A stretch of DNA of 50,003 nucleotides from Flavobacteriales bacterium (GCA_016124845.1 WGMW01000009.1:213624-263626), one strand, 5' to 3'. Counted from the stretch's first letter, positions 39,156 through 46,570 are shown. The notes: generated by a model not told the origin, from the sequence alone. Numbers and translations: made by a program.

Positions 39156-39767
39156 TCATTTGATGCGGAAATCCATCATTTTTCGGCCTTCGATGAAGGC
39201 TTCGAGGTGGTCGCCAACGTTGAGTTTACCTACGCCAGCTGGCGTTCCAGTGAAAATCACATCACCGATCTTGAGCATGAAATACTTACTGGCCTCTTCT
39301 ATGATCCTGTCAACAGGAAAAAGCATATCACCCGTAAATCCTTTCTGAACCACCTTGCCGTTGATGTGCAACTCAAAGTGGATGGCGTTCACATCACCAA
39401 AATCAGAAAGTGGAAGCGTTTTGCTCATGGGTGCCGAACCATCAAAACCTTTTGCCTTCTCCCACGGTAGACCTTTTTCCTTGCATTTCTGCTGAATGTC
39501 GCGGGCAGTAATGTCAATTCCGATACCGATCTCGCGATAGTATTTTGGCGCAAACTTCTCCTGAATGTTCTTTCCCTTTTTGTGGATCTTCACATAGATC
39601 TCGGCCTCGTAATGCACGTCATTGGAGAAATCGGGCAGGTAGAAATCATCATTGTTCGGAAGAACGGCCGAATCGGGTTTGATAAAAAAAAGTGGCTCTG
39701 TAGGAATTGGATTGTTCAGTTCCTTGGCGTGTTCCGCGTAGTTGCGACCGATGCAGATGATCTTCAT
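39156..39767 (-). CDS. Fumarylacetoacetate hydrolase-family protein
   Basis: A 203-residue protein of the FAH superfamily, which acts on 2-oxo or dioxo acids using a divalent metal. KIICIGRNYAEHAKELNNPI and EPLFFIKPDSAVL open the fold; HYEAEIYVKIHKKGKN carries two metal-ligand acids, DITARDIQ follows, and GTPAGVGKLNVGDHLEAFIEG closes it. The size matches short YcgM-like members (acylpyruvases). It overlaps the exonuclease gene by four bases at its start, so it is the last gene of the five-gene minus-strand run. The natural substrate is unclear. Confidence 0.93.
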   Translation of the reverse strand: MKIICIGRNYAEHAKELNNPIPTEPLFFIKPDSAVLPNNDDFYLPDFSNDVHYEAEIYVKIHKKGKNIQEKFAPKYYREIGIGIDITARDIQQKCKEKGLPWEKAKGFDGSAPMSKTLPLSDFGDVNAIHFELHINGKVVQKGFTGDMLFPVDRIIEEASKYFMLKIGDVIFTGTPAGVGKLNVGDHLEAFIEGRKMMDFRIK

Positions 39768-40543
39768 AGCAGACCTTTGTTGAATGCTTCAACCCGTATT
39801 TCGGTAAGCACTTTTTTGGTGTAGCTCGGAAACTGGGCATCCATCATCCAACCGTAGTAACCTGGCTGGGTTTTAAGCACTTCGACAACGGATTTCCCTT
39901 TGTTCTTCCCAAAATTGAATACCGCCTCGCCTTTCTCATTCTCTACGATATGCCCTGCGAAGTCAATCGCATTTCCACGTTTGGAGAAATCGCTGAGCAT
40001 CTCCACATTTCCGTCCAGCTCATCATACTTCTCCACTTGGGCTTTCAGCACTTCCAATGTGGCGCGTGTATCTGCTTCTGCACTGTGCGCATTGGTCAGG
40101 TCGCCATCGCAATAGAACTTGTAAGCGGCCACCAATGTGCGTTGCTCCATCTTATGGAAAATGTTCTGCACGTCCACCACCTTGCGGTTCTTCATACTGA
40201 ATTCAATCTCATTTCGGTGATACTCTTCAAGCAAAAGCGGCACATCGAATTTCAAGCAATTGTAACCCGCCAGATCTGCATTCCCGATAAAATCGGTAAT
40301 TGCGGGGGCCAACTCATTGAAACTGGGCTTGCCGGCCACTTTGTCGTCTGTAATTCCATGAACTGCTGAGGACTCCAGCGGAATTGGCATCCCAGGATTG
40401 ACCAACTCGGTCATGGTTTCTTCCGAACCATCGGGATTCAGTTTGATGATGGAAATCTCCACGATGCGGTCGGTGGCCACATTGACACCCGTGGTCTCGA
40501 GGTCGAAAAAGGCAAGAGGTCGTTTAAGATGAAGCGTTGACAT
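39764..40543 (-). CDS. DnaQ-like 3'-5' exonuclease (DEDDh)
   Basis: A 259-residue protein. Exo I is LAFFDLETTGVN with Asp14 and Glu16; Exo II is LAGYNCLKFDVPLL; Exo III is AHSAEADTRATLEVL with the His/Asp pair, giving the DEDDh set. The C-terminal FGKNKGKSVVEVL and PGYYGWMMDAQFPSYTK form an ExoX-like C-terminal domain that binds DNA ends. It should trim DNA or RNA 3' ends and is not the polymerase epsilon subunit by its tail. Its start overlaps the stop of the PD40 gene by one base (TAATG), and the FAH gene follows with a four-base overlap. The link with envelope genes is unexplained. Confidence 0.93.
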   Translation of the reverse strand: MSTLHLKRPLAFFDLETTGVNVATDRIVEISIIKLNPDGSEETMTELVNPGMPIPLESSAVHGITDDKVAGKPSFNELAPAITDFIGNADLAGYNCLKFDVPLLLEEYHRNEIEFSMKNRKVVDVQNIFHKMEQRTLVAAYKFYCDGDLTNAHSAEADTRATLEVLKAQVEKYDELDGNVEMLSDFSKRGNAIDFAGHIVENEKGEAVFNFGKNKGKSVVEVLKTQPGYYGWMMDAQFPSYTKKVLTEIRVEAFNKGLL

Positions 40544-42474
40544 TACTTCGCTGGTGGTTCAAGTCCATTTTCCACCAAGGTCCATTTCCGGTTGATGATC
40601 TTCTGGTAATCACCGAAGCCCATTACGTTGATCTTCTCTTTGATCGGCTGGAAACCGGGCGCTTCAATCGTAAACTCGTAGATCTGCCCTGGATAGAGTG
40701 CGAAGGTCATCTTACCCGTGTTGTAATTGGGCAGGTAAGTTCCGACCATCTCACCTGATTTATCCGTGACCGTTCCTGTGATCTCAAGGTCTTTCAAATT
40801 GATGATCGGTGAAACTTTCGGTTCAAATTTCTTTGCGGGAACAGCCACTTTCTTCACGCGCGTATCATACCATTGAAATGTTCCTTCTCCTTTTGGGAAA
40901 GTCTCAGGAGTATACTTTGCCACTTCGGCACCATTCCAAGAACCGATGATGGTGATCTCATAGGCCTCTCCGTTCTTCACCTCCACATTCTTTGTCTCCA
41001 CAAATTCATATTCAGGATGATCGGTGGGCTGATATTCATCTGTGAACCATTTCACGTTTCCGTCTTCCGTGTTCTTCCATTCGTGGAAGGTCAAGGTTTC
41101 CTTCTCAGGCCCTTTCATGATCTCCAATTCCACCACCACTGCGGTCAACTGCTCCTCGTAATCCTCAAAGATCACGCGATAGATGTCAAGATCGCCAAAG
41201 CCTCCTTTTCGCAACTGCGCGGTGTAACCATATCGCGGATCATCAGTCGGACAGAATGTAAAATTGTCCATCGTATTGTTGATGGGATAGCAGAGACCTT
41301 CAGGCCGTTCCCATCTACTGAACTGCTCGTTCCATTCGCTCTTGTAGATGTCATAACCGCCCATACTCTTATGTCCCTGAGAAGCGAAATACAACGTTTT
41401 GCCATCAGCCGATATAACGGGAAACATCTCATCATACTGCGTATTGATGGTCGGTCCGAGATTGACAGGAATGGACCATTCTCCGGTCGGAAGCATCTTC
41501 GCCATGTAAATATCAAGCCCACCGAATCCGGGTTCCGCGATGGGCAAACGGGCAATGAACAGCGTCTGACCGTCCGGGGTGCAAGTAGCGGCCATTTCGG
41601 GTTCATCGGTATTAATCGATTCTCCCAATGTTTTTCCTTTTTCCCACCTTCTACCGCTGAACTCGCTCATCCAAATGTCATCGAACCCGTCCATGTTATC
41701 GATCATATAGAAGATATGATCGCCAAAGGCTGACATCCCAACAAACTCCTCTACAAATTCGGTATTGATGGTCATGCCAACACCTTTCGCTTTTCTGAAT
41801 TCACCATACTTGGATTGCGTCCAAAAAATGTCTGCGGGTTTGTTGCCGTCATAGTCCAGGTTCTGTCCGGCAACACCTTTATCTCTTTTGGTGGAGAATA
41901 CAAGGAAAGACTGATCGAGAGGTGTAAAAGGATTCAGGTCAGGACCGTCTGAATTGATGTCATCACCCAAATTCTCGAACCGTACATTGCACGGGTTCTT
42001 CATCAGTTTCCGTGCGTTCTCACAGAATTCGATCTGGCGGGTAACATCAATGATCCGCTCTGGCTTTGTAACGGTGAGTTTGTATTTATTGAAAAAGTAC
42101 AGCGCACTATCGATCTGCTCGTTGTACATGTACGCGGTACCGAGATCATAAAAAACCTCGTCATCAAACTTCTCCTTGGTAATGACCTTTCTCAGGTACG
42201 GGATTGAACGACTTTTGTCAATATTCTGGTATAGGTGGCACAGGCCAACCCGCCAGTTCAGAAACACATCTTCCGGGTTTTCGGCAAGCAGCTGCGTGTA
42301 CTCGATAAATGCGTTCTGATAATCACCGAGGTCGAAAAGGTTCTTTGCCTTTGCCATCGGTGTTGCCCCTTTCACATCATCAACTTGAGCACTTACTTGG
42401 TTCAACGAGAAGAGAAGGCATGCCAGCAACAGCCAACGAAATGAACTCAAACGTATGGGAATTCCTCGAAGCAT
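40543..42474 (-). CDS. TPR-PD40 propeller protein, PorE-like but without OmpA domain
   Basis: A 643-residue exported protein. ATG at 42474, four bases after the upstream stop, puts the signal peptide first (LLLACLLFSLNQVSA, cut before QVDD). Residues about 40-150 are TPR-like (KAKNLFDLGDYQNAFIEYTQ). Residues about 160-470 form a PD40 propeller with repeated blades such as ADGKTLYFASQGHKSMGGYD and PDGQTLFIARL. Beta domains follow and the end (LEITGTVTDKSGEMVGTYLP, APGFQPIKEKI) looks like a carboxypeptidase-regulatory fold. It is a shorter paralogue of the protein at 46573-49737 and lacks the peptidoglycan-binding part. It is probably periplasmic and works with that protein. Confidence 0.88.
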   Translation of the reverse strand: MLRGIPIRLSSFRWLLLACLLFSLNQVSAQVDDVKGATPMAKAKNLFDLGDYQNAFIEYTQLLAENPEDVFLNWRVGLCHLYQNIDKSRSIPYLRKVITKEKFDDEVFYDLGTAYMYNEQIDSALYFFNKYKLTVTKPERIIDVTRQIEFCENARKLMKNPCNVRFENLGDDINSDGPDLNPFTPLDQSFLVFSTKRDKGVAGQNLDYDGNKPADIFWTQSKYGEFRKAKGVGMTINTEFVEEFVGMSAFGDHIFYMIDNMDGFDDIWMSEFSGRRWEKGKTLGESINTDEPEMAATCTPDGQTLFIARLPIAEPGFGGLDIYMAKMLPTGEWSIPVNLGPTINTQYDEMFPVISADGKTLYFASQGHKSMGGYDIYKSEWNEQFSRWERPEGLCYPINNTMDNFTFCPTDDPRYGYTAQLRKGGFGDLDIYRVIFEDYEEQLTAVVVELEIMKGPEKETLTFHEWKNTEDGNVKWFTDEYQPTDHPEYEFVETKNVEVKNGEAYEITIIGSWNGAEVAKYTPETFPKGEGTFQWYDTRVKKVAVPAKKFEPKVSPIINLKDLEITGTVTDKSGEMVGTYLPNYNTGKMTFALYPGQIYEFTIEAPGFQPIKEKINVMGFGDYQKIINRKWTLVENGLEPPAK

Positions 42475-42478
42475 ATTG

Positions 42479-45400
42479 CTACTCGTATTTGCCGATCTCC
42501 AATTTATAAAGTGCCTCTGTAATGGCAATGTCTGAGTTTTTGAAGTAGAATACACCACCCCAATCCCATGTCTTTTTCTCATAGATGGTAACTACATTAT
42601 TCTCATTGATCACGTGGCGCAACAGCACAAAGTTCTTGCCTTGAACGGTTTCCTTTGTAAGACCCGAAGGATAGATCTTGGCAAGCTCAGATAGGAAAGC
42701 CTGTCTTCGCTCGTCACCCGTCAGACCCATATCTTCAACCGCCTGTTGCAGTTTCGCATACTTCTCTTGGCGTTCCTGCTCCAACTCGGCAGCCGTTTTC
42801 TGCTGTTGTTGCTTTGCCTCATCCACTTTGGTCAAAGCTGCCAAGCGAGCCTCTGTTTCGGCTTCAATTCTTGCCTGTTCTGCCGCCTTGCGTTCAGCTT
42901 CTTCCTTTTGCTTTTTCTCGAAGTCACGCTTGGCCTGTTCTTTTCGTCTTGCTTCTTCCTCCTTGGCAAGTGCCACTTCCTCCTCTCTTGCTTCTACTTC
43001 TTTGAGTTTCGCCACTGGCTCACCTTCCTCCGGTTTGATGCTTGCTGCCTCTTCATACTTACTTCTTGCCACATCCAATTGGCTTGATTCAAGTGCTTTG
43101 GAGCCTTCCTGCATTAGCAGCACATACTTGCGCTCCAACTTAATGCGTTCCTTCTCAGCGGCAGCGATCTCATCCAATGTCCGATCGATATTTCTGATCT
43201 GTTGCTTCGGAGCCTGTTCTCCAGGTTTCAACTCGGATGCCTTTTCAAACTTGGTCTTGGCATCTTGGTATTTCTTATTCTTCAGGTCCTCTTCCGCATT
43301 ATTGATGAGTTCATTGTAGCGCTCATCCAAAGCCAATTGCTCCGCCTCTTCCTTGTCAAGTCGCTTTACCTCCACATCTGCTTCGGCAAACTTCTTACTT
43401 GCTTGCTTATCGTCAGGATAAAGGGCAAGAGCATCTTTGTAATTCTTCCACGCATTTCGGAAATCCTGCTTGGCCATGTCGGCATCGGCCTTAGACATCA
43501 ATTTGTCGTAGTTGGCCTTTCTTTCGGCTTCTTCGGCCGCTTTGGCTGCCGCGAGTTCATCCGCTTTACGCTTTTCCTCCGCAATTCTTGCTTCTTCGGC
43601 AGCCTTGGCCGCTGCAATCTCTGCCTCTTTGCGTGCCTTCTCCTCTGCCTCTATACGCTTCTCTTCATCGATTCTCGCCTGTTCAGCCAACCGAGCCTCC
43701 TCCAAAGCTTTGCGCTTCTGCTCATCTTCAAGTTCCTTCTGTCGCTTTTCTTCTGCTTTGCGTGCATCTTCTGCTTCTTTGGCTGCTGCCAATTCTTCAG
43801 CTTGACGTTGTTTTTCCTCCTCCGCTAAGCGTTTCTCCTCTGCTTTCTTGGCATCATCGGCTGCCTTGGCCGCAGCCAACTCTTCCGCCTGACGCTGCTT
43901 TTCTTCTGCTGCTAAGCGTTTCTGCTCCGCTGCTTCAGCGTCCCTTCTTTGCTTTTCAAGCAGAGCAAGCTGTTCTTTGGCCTGACGCTCTGCCTCTTCC
44001 TGCTCTTTTTGTCTGCGGGCTGCCTCTGCGTCAGCAAGTGCTTGCTGTTCCTTACGTTCTTTCTCCAGTCTGGCCTGTCGCTCCTTTTCTATACGCTCCA
44101 ATTCGGCAGCGGCAACCCCTTGTTCAAGGGCCTCACGCTTGGCCTGTTCCATGGCCATTTGCTTGGCCAGTTCTTCCGCTTGCTTCTTTTCTTCGGCCAA
44201 ACGCTCCTGACGTTGTACTTCCACCTTGTGAAGCGTTTCTTCGTAGGCAATTTCTGCCTGCTCAGCCTGCTTTTCTCCTTGCTTCTGTTCTGCCTTGGCT
44301 ATTTCAATTCCGCGCTGAGTACGCTCCTCCTCATATTTTGCCAATTTCTCCTGTTCTTCCAGTTGCTTGGCTTCAAACTGACGCTGCAAACGCTTCAACT
44401 CGGCTTGATCAGCAGCTGCGAACAGCTTTGAGAAATCAACTTTTCCTCCAGAGTTTCCTGATGCGCGGAGTTCCTCGCTCTGCTCCAAATATGAATCATA
44501 GACTTCCTCTGCTCGGTATCTGTCAAGTTCTTTATCGTCTGTTGTCTGAAGAACCTTCTGAATAGCGGCTACCGATTTGTCGCGGTCGCCACCCCCAGAC
44601 TCAATTGCCTCTGCAAGCTGCCGTTCCTTTTTGGTCTTCGCCTCGGCCAAACTTGCTTTCTGGGTTGCCTCAACAACCTTCTCTGCCTGAACGGCCATTT
44701 CGCGCTTCTGCTGGCGCACGTCCTCTCGCTTGGCCTCGATCATTTCAAGTGCCCGTTGCTTTTCTTCGGCATTGCGGATCTTTTCTTCCTCCTTGGCTTT
44801 TTCTTCCGTTACCTCTGCGACTTTAAAAAGTGAGCCAAAATCCATCTTTACCGAGCCCGTTCCACCTTGGGCCTGCTTGCTTTTCACGTATTCTTCCTGT
44901 ATTCGCTCGGCCGTTCCTTGACGGTCGTAGGTATCTTCGGGCAATGCGTTGTAAACAGCCGCGATCTGGGCTTCCCTGTCATTGGCCGGTGCAGCTTTCA
45001 GGGCTTTCTCTATCTCAGGCAGAGCCTTCTTCTGTTTGAGGTATTCCTCATACATCACCTCAGCCTTCTCATCCTTGAAAGATTCATTCTTGGGCAACGC
45101 ATCTTTGAAAGCCGCAATTTGGCTGGCTCTGTCTGAGGAGGCTTCCACCAAACCCTTCATTATGCGCTCTTTCGTCTGCTCCTGTTCCTCCCGCTTCTTC
45201 TCTTCCACTCGTTGCATGAACGCGTCCAATTTGGACTGTTGCTTTGAATTGTCATCTGCGATTTCTTTCTGAATCGCATTCTGCTCAGCAAGATCTGCCG
45301 CATTGAACAGTTTATTGAAATCCATGGCAGAAAGCGTAGTTCCTCCCATACGCTCCTTTTCATAGGCATCATAGATGGCCTCTGCCTTTTGCTTGGCATA

Positions 45401-46570
45401 CTTATCCCCTTTAGGATAGGTCTTTATCAGACTTTGGACAGCTTCATCTCTACTCCCCGAATTGAAGATGGCGTAGTAAACGCTGTTCCTCTTATCCAAC
45501 TCCTCCTGCTTCTTTCTCGCCTCCTCCTCAGCGATGGCCGCAGCCAACCGTTCACTTTCCTGAACTTCGATGGCCTTTTGTGCGATTTCCATTGCCTCTT
45601 GCGATTTGTGCTCCGCCTCTTCTTTCTCAGCCTTCAGGATAGCCACCTGTGCTTGCCTTTCCTCTTCGGCTTCCTTCACCACTTTCTCTTCAACGGTCTT
45701 GGCCGAATTGAAAATTGCTTGAAAATTGATCTTGTTTCCGGTTGCTTTCGACTGTTTGCGCTCTTCGAGCAATTGCGCATACATGGCATCCACTTTCTTT
45801 TCTCTTAGCGTGTCAACCTCAGAGAAGACCTCCATGAAACCTTTCTTGGTTTTTGCCTCATCACCATCACCAACGGTAATGGCCGCTTCTATCAATTGCT
45901 GGGCAGTTGCATTCTCTTTCTCTAAGAGGAGTTTGGCCGCTTCTTCAAGCTCTTTTTTCTTTTCGTATGCCAACTCAGCAAGCCGCTGCTTCTCTTCCCG
46001 TTCCCGCAATTCCTTTTCTTCATTCCGTATGTCTTCCTTGGAATAATCAAGCTGATAATCGAACTTGTTCTGCTTCGGGTAATAAAATACTGATGCTACT
46101 GACCCTGAGAATGGCAAACCATCCAGGTCAGGCACCATGTCCACCTGAAATTCGAACGTAGGCACCGTGGTATACTGCTCTCTGGCGGAACGTACATCCG
46201 TATCAATATCAACCATTTTAGTGGTATACCCTGACTTCTCCACAGAAAGGACATAAAACTTGTTGACCTCAGCCTTGAATGTGAATTCACCACTACCGGG
46301 CGTCACTGTTCTCAATACCTCAGTCAAATTATCGTGTGTACCATCTTCGGATTGATAGAGAACCACGATTGCACCTTTCAACTTTTTGGACAGTTCTATG
46401 ACATGCCCTTTGAAATCCAAGGGGCCTTTGATGTTGGAACGGTTCATCAAACTGTCTCCGTTCACCTCGTAGTCATCCTGAGCAAATGCGGTACTTGAAA
46501 TGCAAACAACTGTGGTCATAACCACCAGATAGGCACCAATTCGGAGCAATATTTTTGGCAACAGGCTCAC
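42479..46570 (-). CDS. Giant exported coiled-coil protein with internal repeats
   Basis: A 1363-residue protein with a signal peptide (cut near TAFA/QDDYE). Residues 40-180 hold a beta domain of carboxypeptidase-regulatory/PEGA type. From about 190 the chain is mostly charged helix rich in Glu, Lys, Ala and Gln. Four copies of a [IMV]DFxxLFxxA motif lie at about 282, 416, 576 and 710 (for example MDFNKLFNAADLAEQ), each after an A-E-x-x-Y-x-x-Y stretch. A long Glu/Ala/Lys coiled coil covers about 730-1030. Three TPR-like repeats follow at about 1035-1215, and a beta-rich end (VFYFKNSDIAITEALYKLEI) closes it. I do not recognise it as a known family. It lies two bases after the OmpA-propeller gene and four before the PD40 gene. 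Confidence 0.9.
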   Translation of the reverse strand: MSLLPKILLRIGAYLVVMTTVVCISSTAFAQDDYEVNGDSLMNRSNIKGPLDFKGHVIELSKKLKGAIVVLYQSEDGTHDNLTEVLRTVTPGSGEFTFKAEVNKFYVLSVEKSGYTTKMVDIDTDVRSAREQYTTVPTFEFQVDMVPDLDGLPFSGSVASVFYYPKQNKFDYQLDYSKEDIRNEEKELREREEKQRLAELAYEKKKELEEAAKLLLEKENATAQQLIEAAITVGDGDEAKTKKGFMEVFSEVDTLREKKVDAMYAQLLEERKQSKATGNKINFQAIFNSAKTVEEKVVKEAEEERQAQVAILKAEKEEAEHKSQEAMEIAQKAIEVQESERLAAAIAEEEARKKQEELDKRNSVYYAIFNSGSRDEAVQSLIKTYPKGDKYAKQKAEAIYDAYEKERMGGTTLSAMDFNKLFNAADLAEQNAIQKEIADDNSKQQSKLDAFMQRVEEKKREEQEQTKERIMKGLVEASSDRASQIAAFKDALPKNESFKDEKAEVMYEEYLKQKKALPEIEKALKAAPANDREAQIAAVYNALPEDTYDRQGTAERIQEEYVKSKQAQGGTGSVKMDFGSLFKVAEVTEEKAKEEEKIRNAEEKQRALEMIEAKREDVRQQKREMAVQAEKVVEATQKASLAEAKTKKERQLAEAIESGGGDRDKSVAAIQKVLQTTDDKELDRYRAEEVYDSYLEQSEELRASGNSGGKVDFSKLFAAADQAELKRLQRQFEAKQLEEQEKLAKYEEERTQRGIEIAKAEQKQGEKQAEQAEIAYEETLHKVEVQRQERLAEEKKQAEELAKQMAMEQAKREALEQGVAAAELERIEKERQARLEKERKEQQALADAEAARRQKEQEEAERQAKEQLALLEKQRRDAEAAEQKRLAAEEKQRQAEELAAAKAADDAKKAEEKRLAEEEKQRQAEELAAAKEAEDARKAEEKRQKELEDEQKRKALEEARLAEQARIDEEKRIEAEEKARKEAEIAAAKAAEEARIAEEKRKADELAAAKAAEEAERKANYDKLMSKADADMAKQDFRNAWKNYKDALALYPDDKQASKKFAEADVEVKRLDKEEAEQLALDERYNELINNAEEDLKNKKYQDAKTKFEKASELKPGEQAPKQQIRNIDRTLDEIAAAEKERIKLERKYVLLMQEGSKALESSQLDVARSKYEEAASIKPEEGEPVAKLKEVEAREEEVALAKEEEARRKEQAKRDFEKKQKEEAERKAAEQARIEAETEARLAALTKVDEAKQQQQKTAAELEQERQEKYAKLQQAVEDMGLTGDERRQAFLSELAKIYPSGLTKETVQGKNFVLLRHVINENNVVTIYEKKTWDWGGVFYFKNSDIAITEALYKLEIGKYE

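Follow-up and report, generated by a model that had tools for sequence, protein, structure and literature searches.

The window analysed here, a 50,003-nucleotide stretch of a Flavobacteriales bacterium genome, contains on its minus strand an ORF for a protein of 1363 aa with a GTG start codon (P0001, positions 42479–46570), as the preliminary description had claimed; below it is referred to as the rod gene. The gene begins 2 bp past the stop codon of the gene for a TPR-PD40-WD40-OmpA protein of 1054 aa (P0003, 46573–49737, minus strand) and ends 4 bp ahead of the start of the gene for a TPR-PD40 protein of 643 aa (P0002, 40543–42474, minus strand); hence it lies inside an apparent operon, whose third and fifth genes are these two neighbours. 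P0003 has strong Pfam matches to WD40 (1.2e-56), OmpA (3.4e-20) and PD40 (1.8e-14), and matches the NCBIfam models of CHU_0125 (2.3e-83) and PorE (1e-65), both under the cut-off. The mechanically predicted start of P0002 at 42582 overlaps the rod gene, and the ATG at 42474 is a better one. By synteny, the block is bordered by two further genes of the same strand, which by sequence reading encode an exonuclease-like protein (39764–40543) and a fumarylacetoacetate-hydrolase-like (FAH) protein (39156–39767).

The rod protein contains one hydrophobic stretch (residues ~6–25, ending in AFA-Q) and none later, which fits a soluble protein that is exported, export having been suggested before; the predicted signal peptide covers residues 1–30 (..SSTAFA-QDD; 46481–46570, minus strand), both the stretch and the cleavage site being read by eye. 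The full-length sequence had no match in NCBIfam at E ≤ 0.1, nothing in Pfam beyond a weak CarboxypepD_reg match at the N-terminus, and, with the C-terminal domain as a second query, no match in sequence searches of PDB; in the literature we found no named family with its features. The protein, initially described as unrecognised, thus has not been assigned to a well-studied family by the profile searches. By its sequence, it appears to be a large, previously undescribed exported protein, comprising a helical rod, repeated modules, and two small end domains. The preliminary description had missed both end domains, as well as the paralogues within this genome and the family found across the class, all described below.

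The repeated modules are marked by DFxxLF motifs at residues 282 (in the variant form NFQAIF), 417, 577 and 712, with spacings of 135, 160 and 135 residues, whereas 134, 160 and 134 had been reported originally. The profile of the unit was constructed from unit 2 of the orthologues from other species only, with the window protein left out. It matches five segments of the rod protein with scores from 12.3 to 99.3 bits, the maximum over 1000 locally shuffled copies of this protein being 6.9 bits, so the units are related beyond chance. On the minus strand, these are unit 1 (residues 224–292, NFQAIF; 45695–45901; 14.4 bits), unit 2 (residues 360–427, DFNKLF; 45290–45493; 99.3 bits), unit 3 (residues 529–587, DFGSLF; 44810–44986; 12.3 bits), unit 4 (residues 648–722, DFSKLF; 44405–44629; 21.3 bits), and a degenerate unit without the DFxxLF motif at residues 466–517 (45020–45175; 15.4 bits). 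We may conclude that the repeats are genuine, with four DF units and a fifth, degenerate one. The segments DRxxxIAxxxxxLP...AExxYxxY, earlier listed as a further element, are indeed present; they constitute the body of the DF unit rather than a separate repeat.

In the AlphaFold model of residues 525–730 (18 sequences, pLDDT 83, pTM 0.45), units 3 and 4 are helical: each is predicted as a pair of short helices and a loop, after which the DFxxLF segment opens the next long helix, and an 81-residue helix connects the two units. The comparison of the units with 39 PDB chains using VIA yielded no clear match (best Z 4.6). The best sequence match of the DF profile, to the N-terminus of a sigma factor (E 0.012), is weak, helical and cytoplasmic, and the match of one unit to DUF2119 (E 0.0087) is weak and helical; both were taken as chance.

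The DF units are followed by a putative long helix (residues 731–1015; 43526–44380, minus strand) consisting of 26% E, 24% A, 13% K, 11% Q and 9% R, in agreement with the Glu/Lys/Ala-rich helix described at the outset. It had been regarded as a coiled coil, but neither a heptad nor a hendecad periodicity was significant in this region; hence "long helix" is a safer term. The periodicity instead peaks at 2.92 residues, probably due to an internal near-repeat of 29 residues. If wholly helical, this region would be ~43 nm long. An envelope-spanning rod of fixed length does not agree with the variation in size: the orthologues range from 1158 to 1529 aa, and the family as a whole from 290 to more than 1700 aa. 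Thus, the rod is not a fixed ruler or spacer. The TPR-like repeats expected after the helix are found at residues ~1022–1205 (42956–43507, minus strand), with matches to TPR_2 (1.3e-5) and TPR_19 (3.7e-4) under the cut-offs; for the isolated segment of residues 1015–1205 the TPR_2 score is 25.4 bits, the Pfam gathering score being 27.

At the ends of the protein there are two domains with conserved cores in the respective alignments. The N-terminal domain (residues 47–181; 46028–46432, minus strand; profile A3, 148 bits) likely is a sandwich of the carboxypeptidase-regulatory, or transthyretin-like, type: its match to PF13620 (E 5.5e-4) is below the gathering score, and the fold of a short relative agrees with it. 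The C-terminal domain (residues 1291–1360; 42491–42700, minus strand; profile A4, 102 bits) is ~65 residues long and carries an almost invariant WGG-x-YYF motif; its best match in Pfam was DUF995 at E 0.12, and no match was found in NCBIfam. The short relative is the 290-aa family member from Carboxylicivirga linearis, whose AlphaFold model (28 sequences, pLDDT 82, pTM 0.59) comprises the N-terminal beta sandwich, a disordered linker, and the C-terminal domain, in which five strands are followed by a helix at the end. The Foldseek and VIA comparisons of this short member covered its N-terminal domain, which aligned over 80–94 residues with transthyretin-like and carboxypeptidase-regulatory folds at VIA Z of about 7–8, the rows being tied.

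The search of the window's own genome revealed paralogues similar to the rod protein at either end, and not in the middle. One of them (P0004, 1754 aa) contains TPR-like units as well as an E/K/A stretch that is very long, another (P0005) has 536 aa, and a more distant one has 705 aa; the DF-unit profile gave no score in P0004 or P0005. A protein of 149 aa (contig C50; L011:5828–6277, minus strand) is the N-terminal domain alone, and its gene is situated between a bactofilin-like gene and genes of ATP-synthase subunits. Among the complete ORFs of the named set, both domains were found in 50, the C-terminal domain only in 10, and the N-terminal domain only in six; the members with two domains range from 290 to 1754 aa. 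One ORF tallied as having only the C-terminal domain (L097, 3124 aa) contains the N-terminal domain internally, and several others in this group are small exported TPR-like proteins ending in the C-terminal domain. The profile of the C-terminal domain has matches in 139 of the 295 Bacteroidia genomes (61 of the 156 genera), and among the named relatives are metagenome-assembled genomes (MAGs) of Flavobacteriales, Crocinitomicaceae and Bacteroidales, the cultured C. linearis, and a MAG labelled Chlorobiota; the closest named relatives of the window are MAGs labelled Flavobacteriales, one of them UBA10329. The rod protein belongs to a family of exported proteins, modelled neither in Pfam nor in NCBIfam, in which the carboxypeptidase-regulatory-like domain at the N-terminus and the WGGVYYF domain at the C-terminus are separated by a spacer that can have any length.

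We found no gene recurring beside all members of this family; each subgroup has its own neighbours. Next to the short members, genes for three kinds of small exported protein recur (~175 aa with TPRs, ~139 aa with a CxxC motif, and ~140–200 aa; 9–17 loci each), and the loci of this kind (L010, L101, L131, L133, L134, L141, L145, L150–L155 and others) look like a second conserved gene cluster. In Crocinitomicaceae and other Flavobacteriales there are tandem triplets (L106, L111, L132, L140), where a gene for the N-terminal domain alone is followed by two members with both domains.

In the window's genus, the gene order around the rod is TPR-PD40 (~545 aa), TPR-PD40...OmpA (~1330 aa), PD40-WD40-OmpA (1054 aa), rod, TPR-PD40 (~645 aa), exonuclease, FAH. 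In the window's genome the assembly breaks in the low-complexity E/A/K stretch of gene 2, so that the operon falls on two contigs: C20 stops inside gene 2 (end at 74843) and the window contig C9 just upstream of gene 3 (50003). The DF units are present in 15 of the 295 genomes, belonging to four families, and in the three families other than the window's own the rod gene takes the same place, with a PD40-OmpA gene before it and the last PD40 gene after it. Gene 3 in these three families encodes a protein without the WD40 part (745–762 aa); compared with them, the WD40 propeller of P0003 is confined to the window's genus and seems to be a lineage-specific insertion of a second propeller. Gene 2 was found at ≥50% identity in 15 genomes, 14 of them also having DF units (the next best identity is 45%), which amounts to about four lineages rather than 14 independent cases. 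Wherever its context was read, the DF-unit rod is always in one operon with PorE/CHU_0125-like TPR-propeller(-OmpA) genes. Thus, the placement between two propeller proteins, already pointed out in the preliminary description, is retained in four families, and a functional link between the rod and the propeller proteins is credible.

A block without the rod also exists. In several other Bacteroidia (L184, L185, L187, L188) there are tandem TPR-PD40(-OmpA) genes with an odhB-like gene at one border; in two of these four cases, the opposite border is formed by exonuclease and FAH genes. Hence, in some lineages the rod is an addition, or a substitute for one propeller gene, and, as the propeller operon occurs without the rod in most of the Bacteroidia inspected, the core tether does not require it.

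As to the function, the propeller proteins of the operon are related to PorE and CHU_0125. The OmpA domain of PorE has been crystallised together with a peptidoglycan fragment (PMC7192894), and PorE, a component of the type IX secretion system (T9SS), binds the outer-membrane barrel PorP (PMC9143113). Deletion of CHU_0125 leads to vesicle release and loss of the outer-membrane integrity (PMC5891637). In a 2025 analysis, PorE was put forward as a compact tether of Bacteroidetes similar to CpoB-TolB-Pal, and further systems stabilising the outer membrane were said still to be found (PMC12204202).

Given these data, the simplest reading is that the rod protein is a periplasmic scaffold added to an operon for an outer-membrane/peptidoglycan tether, which clusters or spaces the propeller/OmpA proteins via its DF units and end caps; we would give this reading roughly even chances. 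In such a case, the propeller/OmpA proteins of the operon would connect peptidoglycan with complexes in the outer membrane, and several of them would be collected or spaced by the rod, presumably located in the periplasm. Along the rod, partners would dock repeatedly, at the DF units, possibly bound by the propellers, and at the TPRs, whereas the end domains would fix its tips to envelope partners, the whole protein being a strut on a PorE-like tether between the outer membrane and the cell wall. This scheme is supported by the strong OmpA match of P0003, by the gaps of only 2 and 4 bp that separate the rod gene from its propeller neighbours, by the retention of these neighbours in four families, by the shared occurrence of gene 2 and the DF units, and by the bead-like units of the AlphaFold model. 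Against it, family members encoded outside the rod operon mostly have no propeller neighbours. A broader version of it, which is tentative and rather unlikely, is that the WGGVYYF domain serves as the shared docking module of a large, unrecognised class of Bacteroidota periplasmic struts, helical rods of freely varying length, which would form a Tol-Pal-like tether with PorE-like propeller/OmpA proteins.

Three other explanations were considered. The rod protein could belong to the type IX secretion and gliding machinery, organising PorE-like proteins that hold PorP/SprF barrels and PorK/N rings. The window's genome has GldM, a PorP/SprF-like gene lies in the region of the short paralogue, genes near the C1 paralogue carry, by sequence reading, apparent T9SS sorting tails, and PorE itself, as mentioned above, is a T9SS component. 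On the other hand, the rod operon contains no PorP or Gld gene, its propeller proteins fall under the PorE cut-off, and the DF version is restricted to four families. At the threshold used, the C-terminal domain is absent in 143 of the 280 GldM-positive genomes; hence, at this sensitivity, the family is not a core part of T9SS, although the comparison has little power, as GldM is present in 280 of the 295 genomes. This explanation seems fairly unlikely to us. Alternatively, the C-terminal domain could be a sorting or anchoring tag, its carriers being cargo that the extreme C-terminus would direct to the outer membrane or the cell surface, or hold there. The members read do have it within about 25 residues of the C-terminus, and it occurs on exported proteins with wholly different middles, as well as on TPR proteins without the N-terminal domain. 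However, 50 of the 60 complete ORFs with this domain also have the N-terminal one, the very long L097 has it internally, and no sorting-domain model from Pfam or NCBIfam matched; the two former observations suggest a scaffold with two ends more than a tag attached to random cargo, and we consider the tag quite unlikely. Finally, we regard it as very unlikely that the protein builds envelope filaments or a periplasmic cytoskeleton shaping the cell. The long helical rod with repeats and the bactofilin-like neighbour of the solo N-terminal domain gene speak for it; against it, a heptad signal indicating a coiled coil is missing from the main helix, the rod length varies, and the bactofilin neighbour, also being within the ATP-synthase cluster, may be incidental.

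Under the scaffold reading, the locus, with four propeller proteins, two of them having OmpA domains, and the rod, would be a candidate for a further outer-membrane stabilising system. The family itself is absent from Pfam and NCBIfam, yet about half of the Bacteroidia genomes in the sample have it, and the tandem TPR-PD40(-OmpA) block beside the odhB-like gene is a conserved Bacteroidia block of interest in its own right.

Several known systems are similar to this locus in part. P0002 and P0003 are relatives, under the curated cut-offs, of the TPR-PD40-CRD-OmpA envelope proteins PorE (NF052230) and CHU_0125 (NF053607). The N-terminal domain of the rod protein seems to resemble their CRD, and its profile weakly matches the CHU_0125-like proteins of the same genome, but the rod protein has neither a PD40 propeller nor an OmpA domain; with no NCBIfam match and only the weak CRD match in Pfam, it was rejected as a member of these families. 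It was not accepted as T9SS cargo with a type A or type B CTD either, as no sorting-domain model of Pfam or NCBIfam matched. The N-terminal domain seems to share the fold of the CarboxypepD_reg/transthyretin-like domains (PF13620, the N-terminal extension of SusC), as suggested by the model of the short relative; however, this fold is common, with Z tied among many unrelated chains, and the sequence is below the gathering score.

The likeness to TolA lies in an exported spacer, rich in E, A and K and apparently helical, which ends in a small beta domain, and in the link to proteins whose propellers are similar to that of TolB and whose OmpA domains are similar to that of Pal. At the same time, the C-terminal domain has no TolA_C/TonB_C match, the locus contains PD40/OmpA genes instead of TolQ/TolR genes, the hydrophobic N-terminus looks, by eye, like a cleaved signal, and there are the additional N-terminal domain and DF units; the only match to the TolA model in the window's genome is weak, situated elsewhere, and below the cut-off. 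The protein thus was rejected as TolA given the missing domain and tolQ/tolR context, and the rod may be comparable to the helical part of TolA in its role, not in descent. Tethering of the outer membrane to the cell wall is an already known kind of system; the candidate new part, with its function deduced from context, is the rod of a widespread two-ended family within a tether operon.
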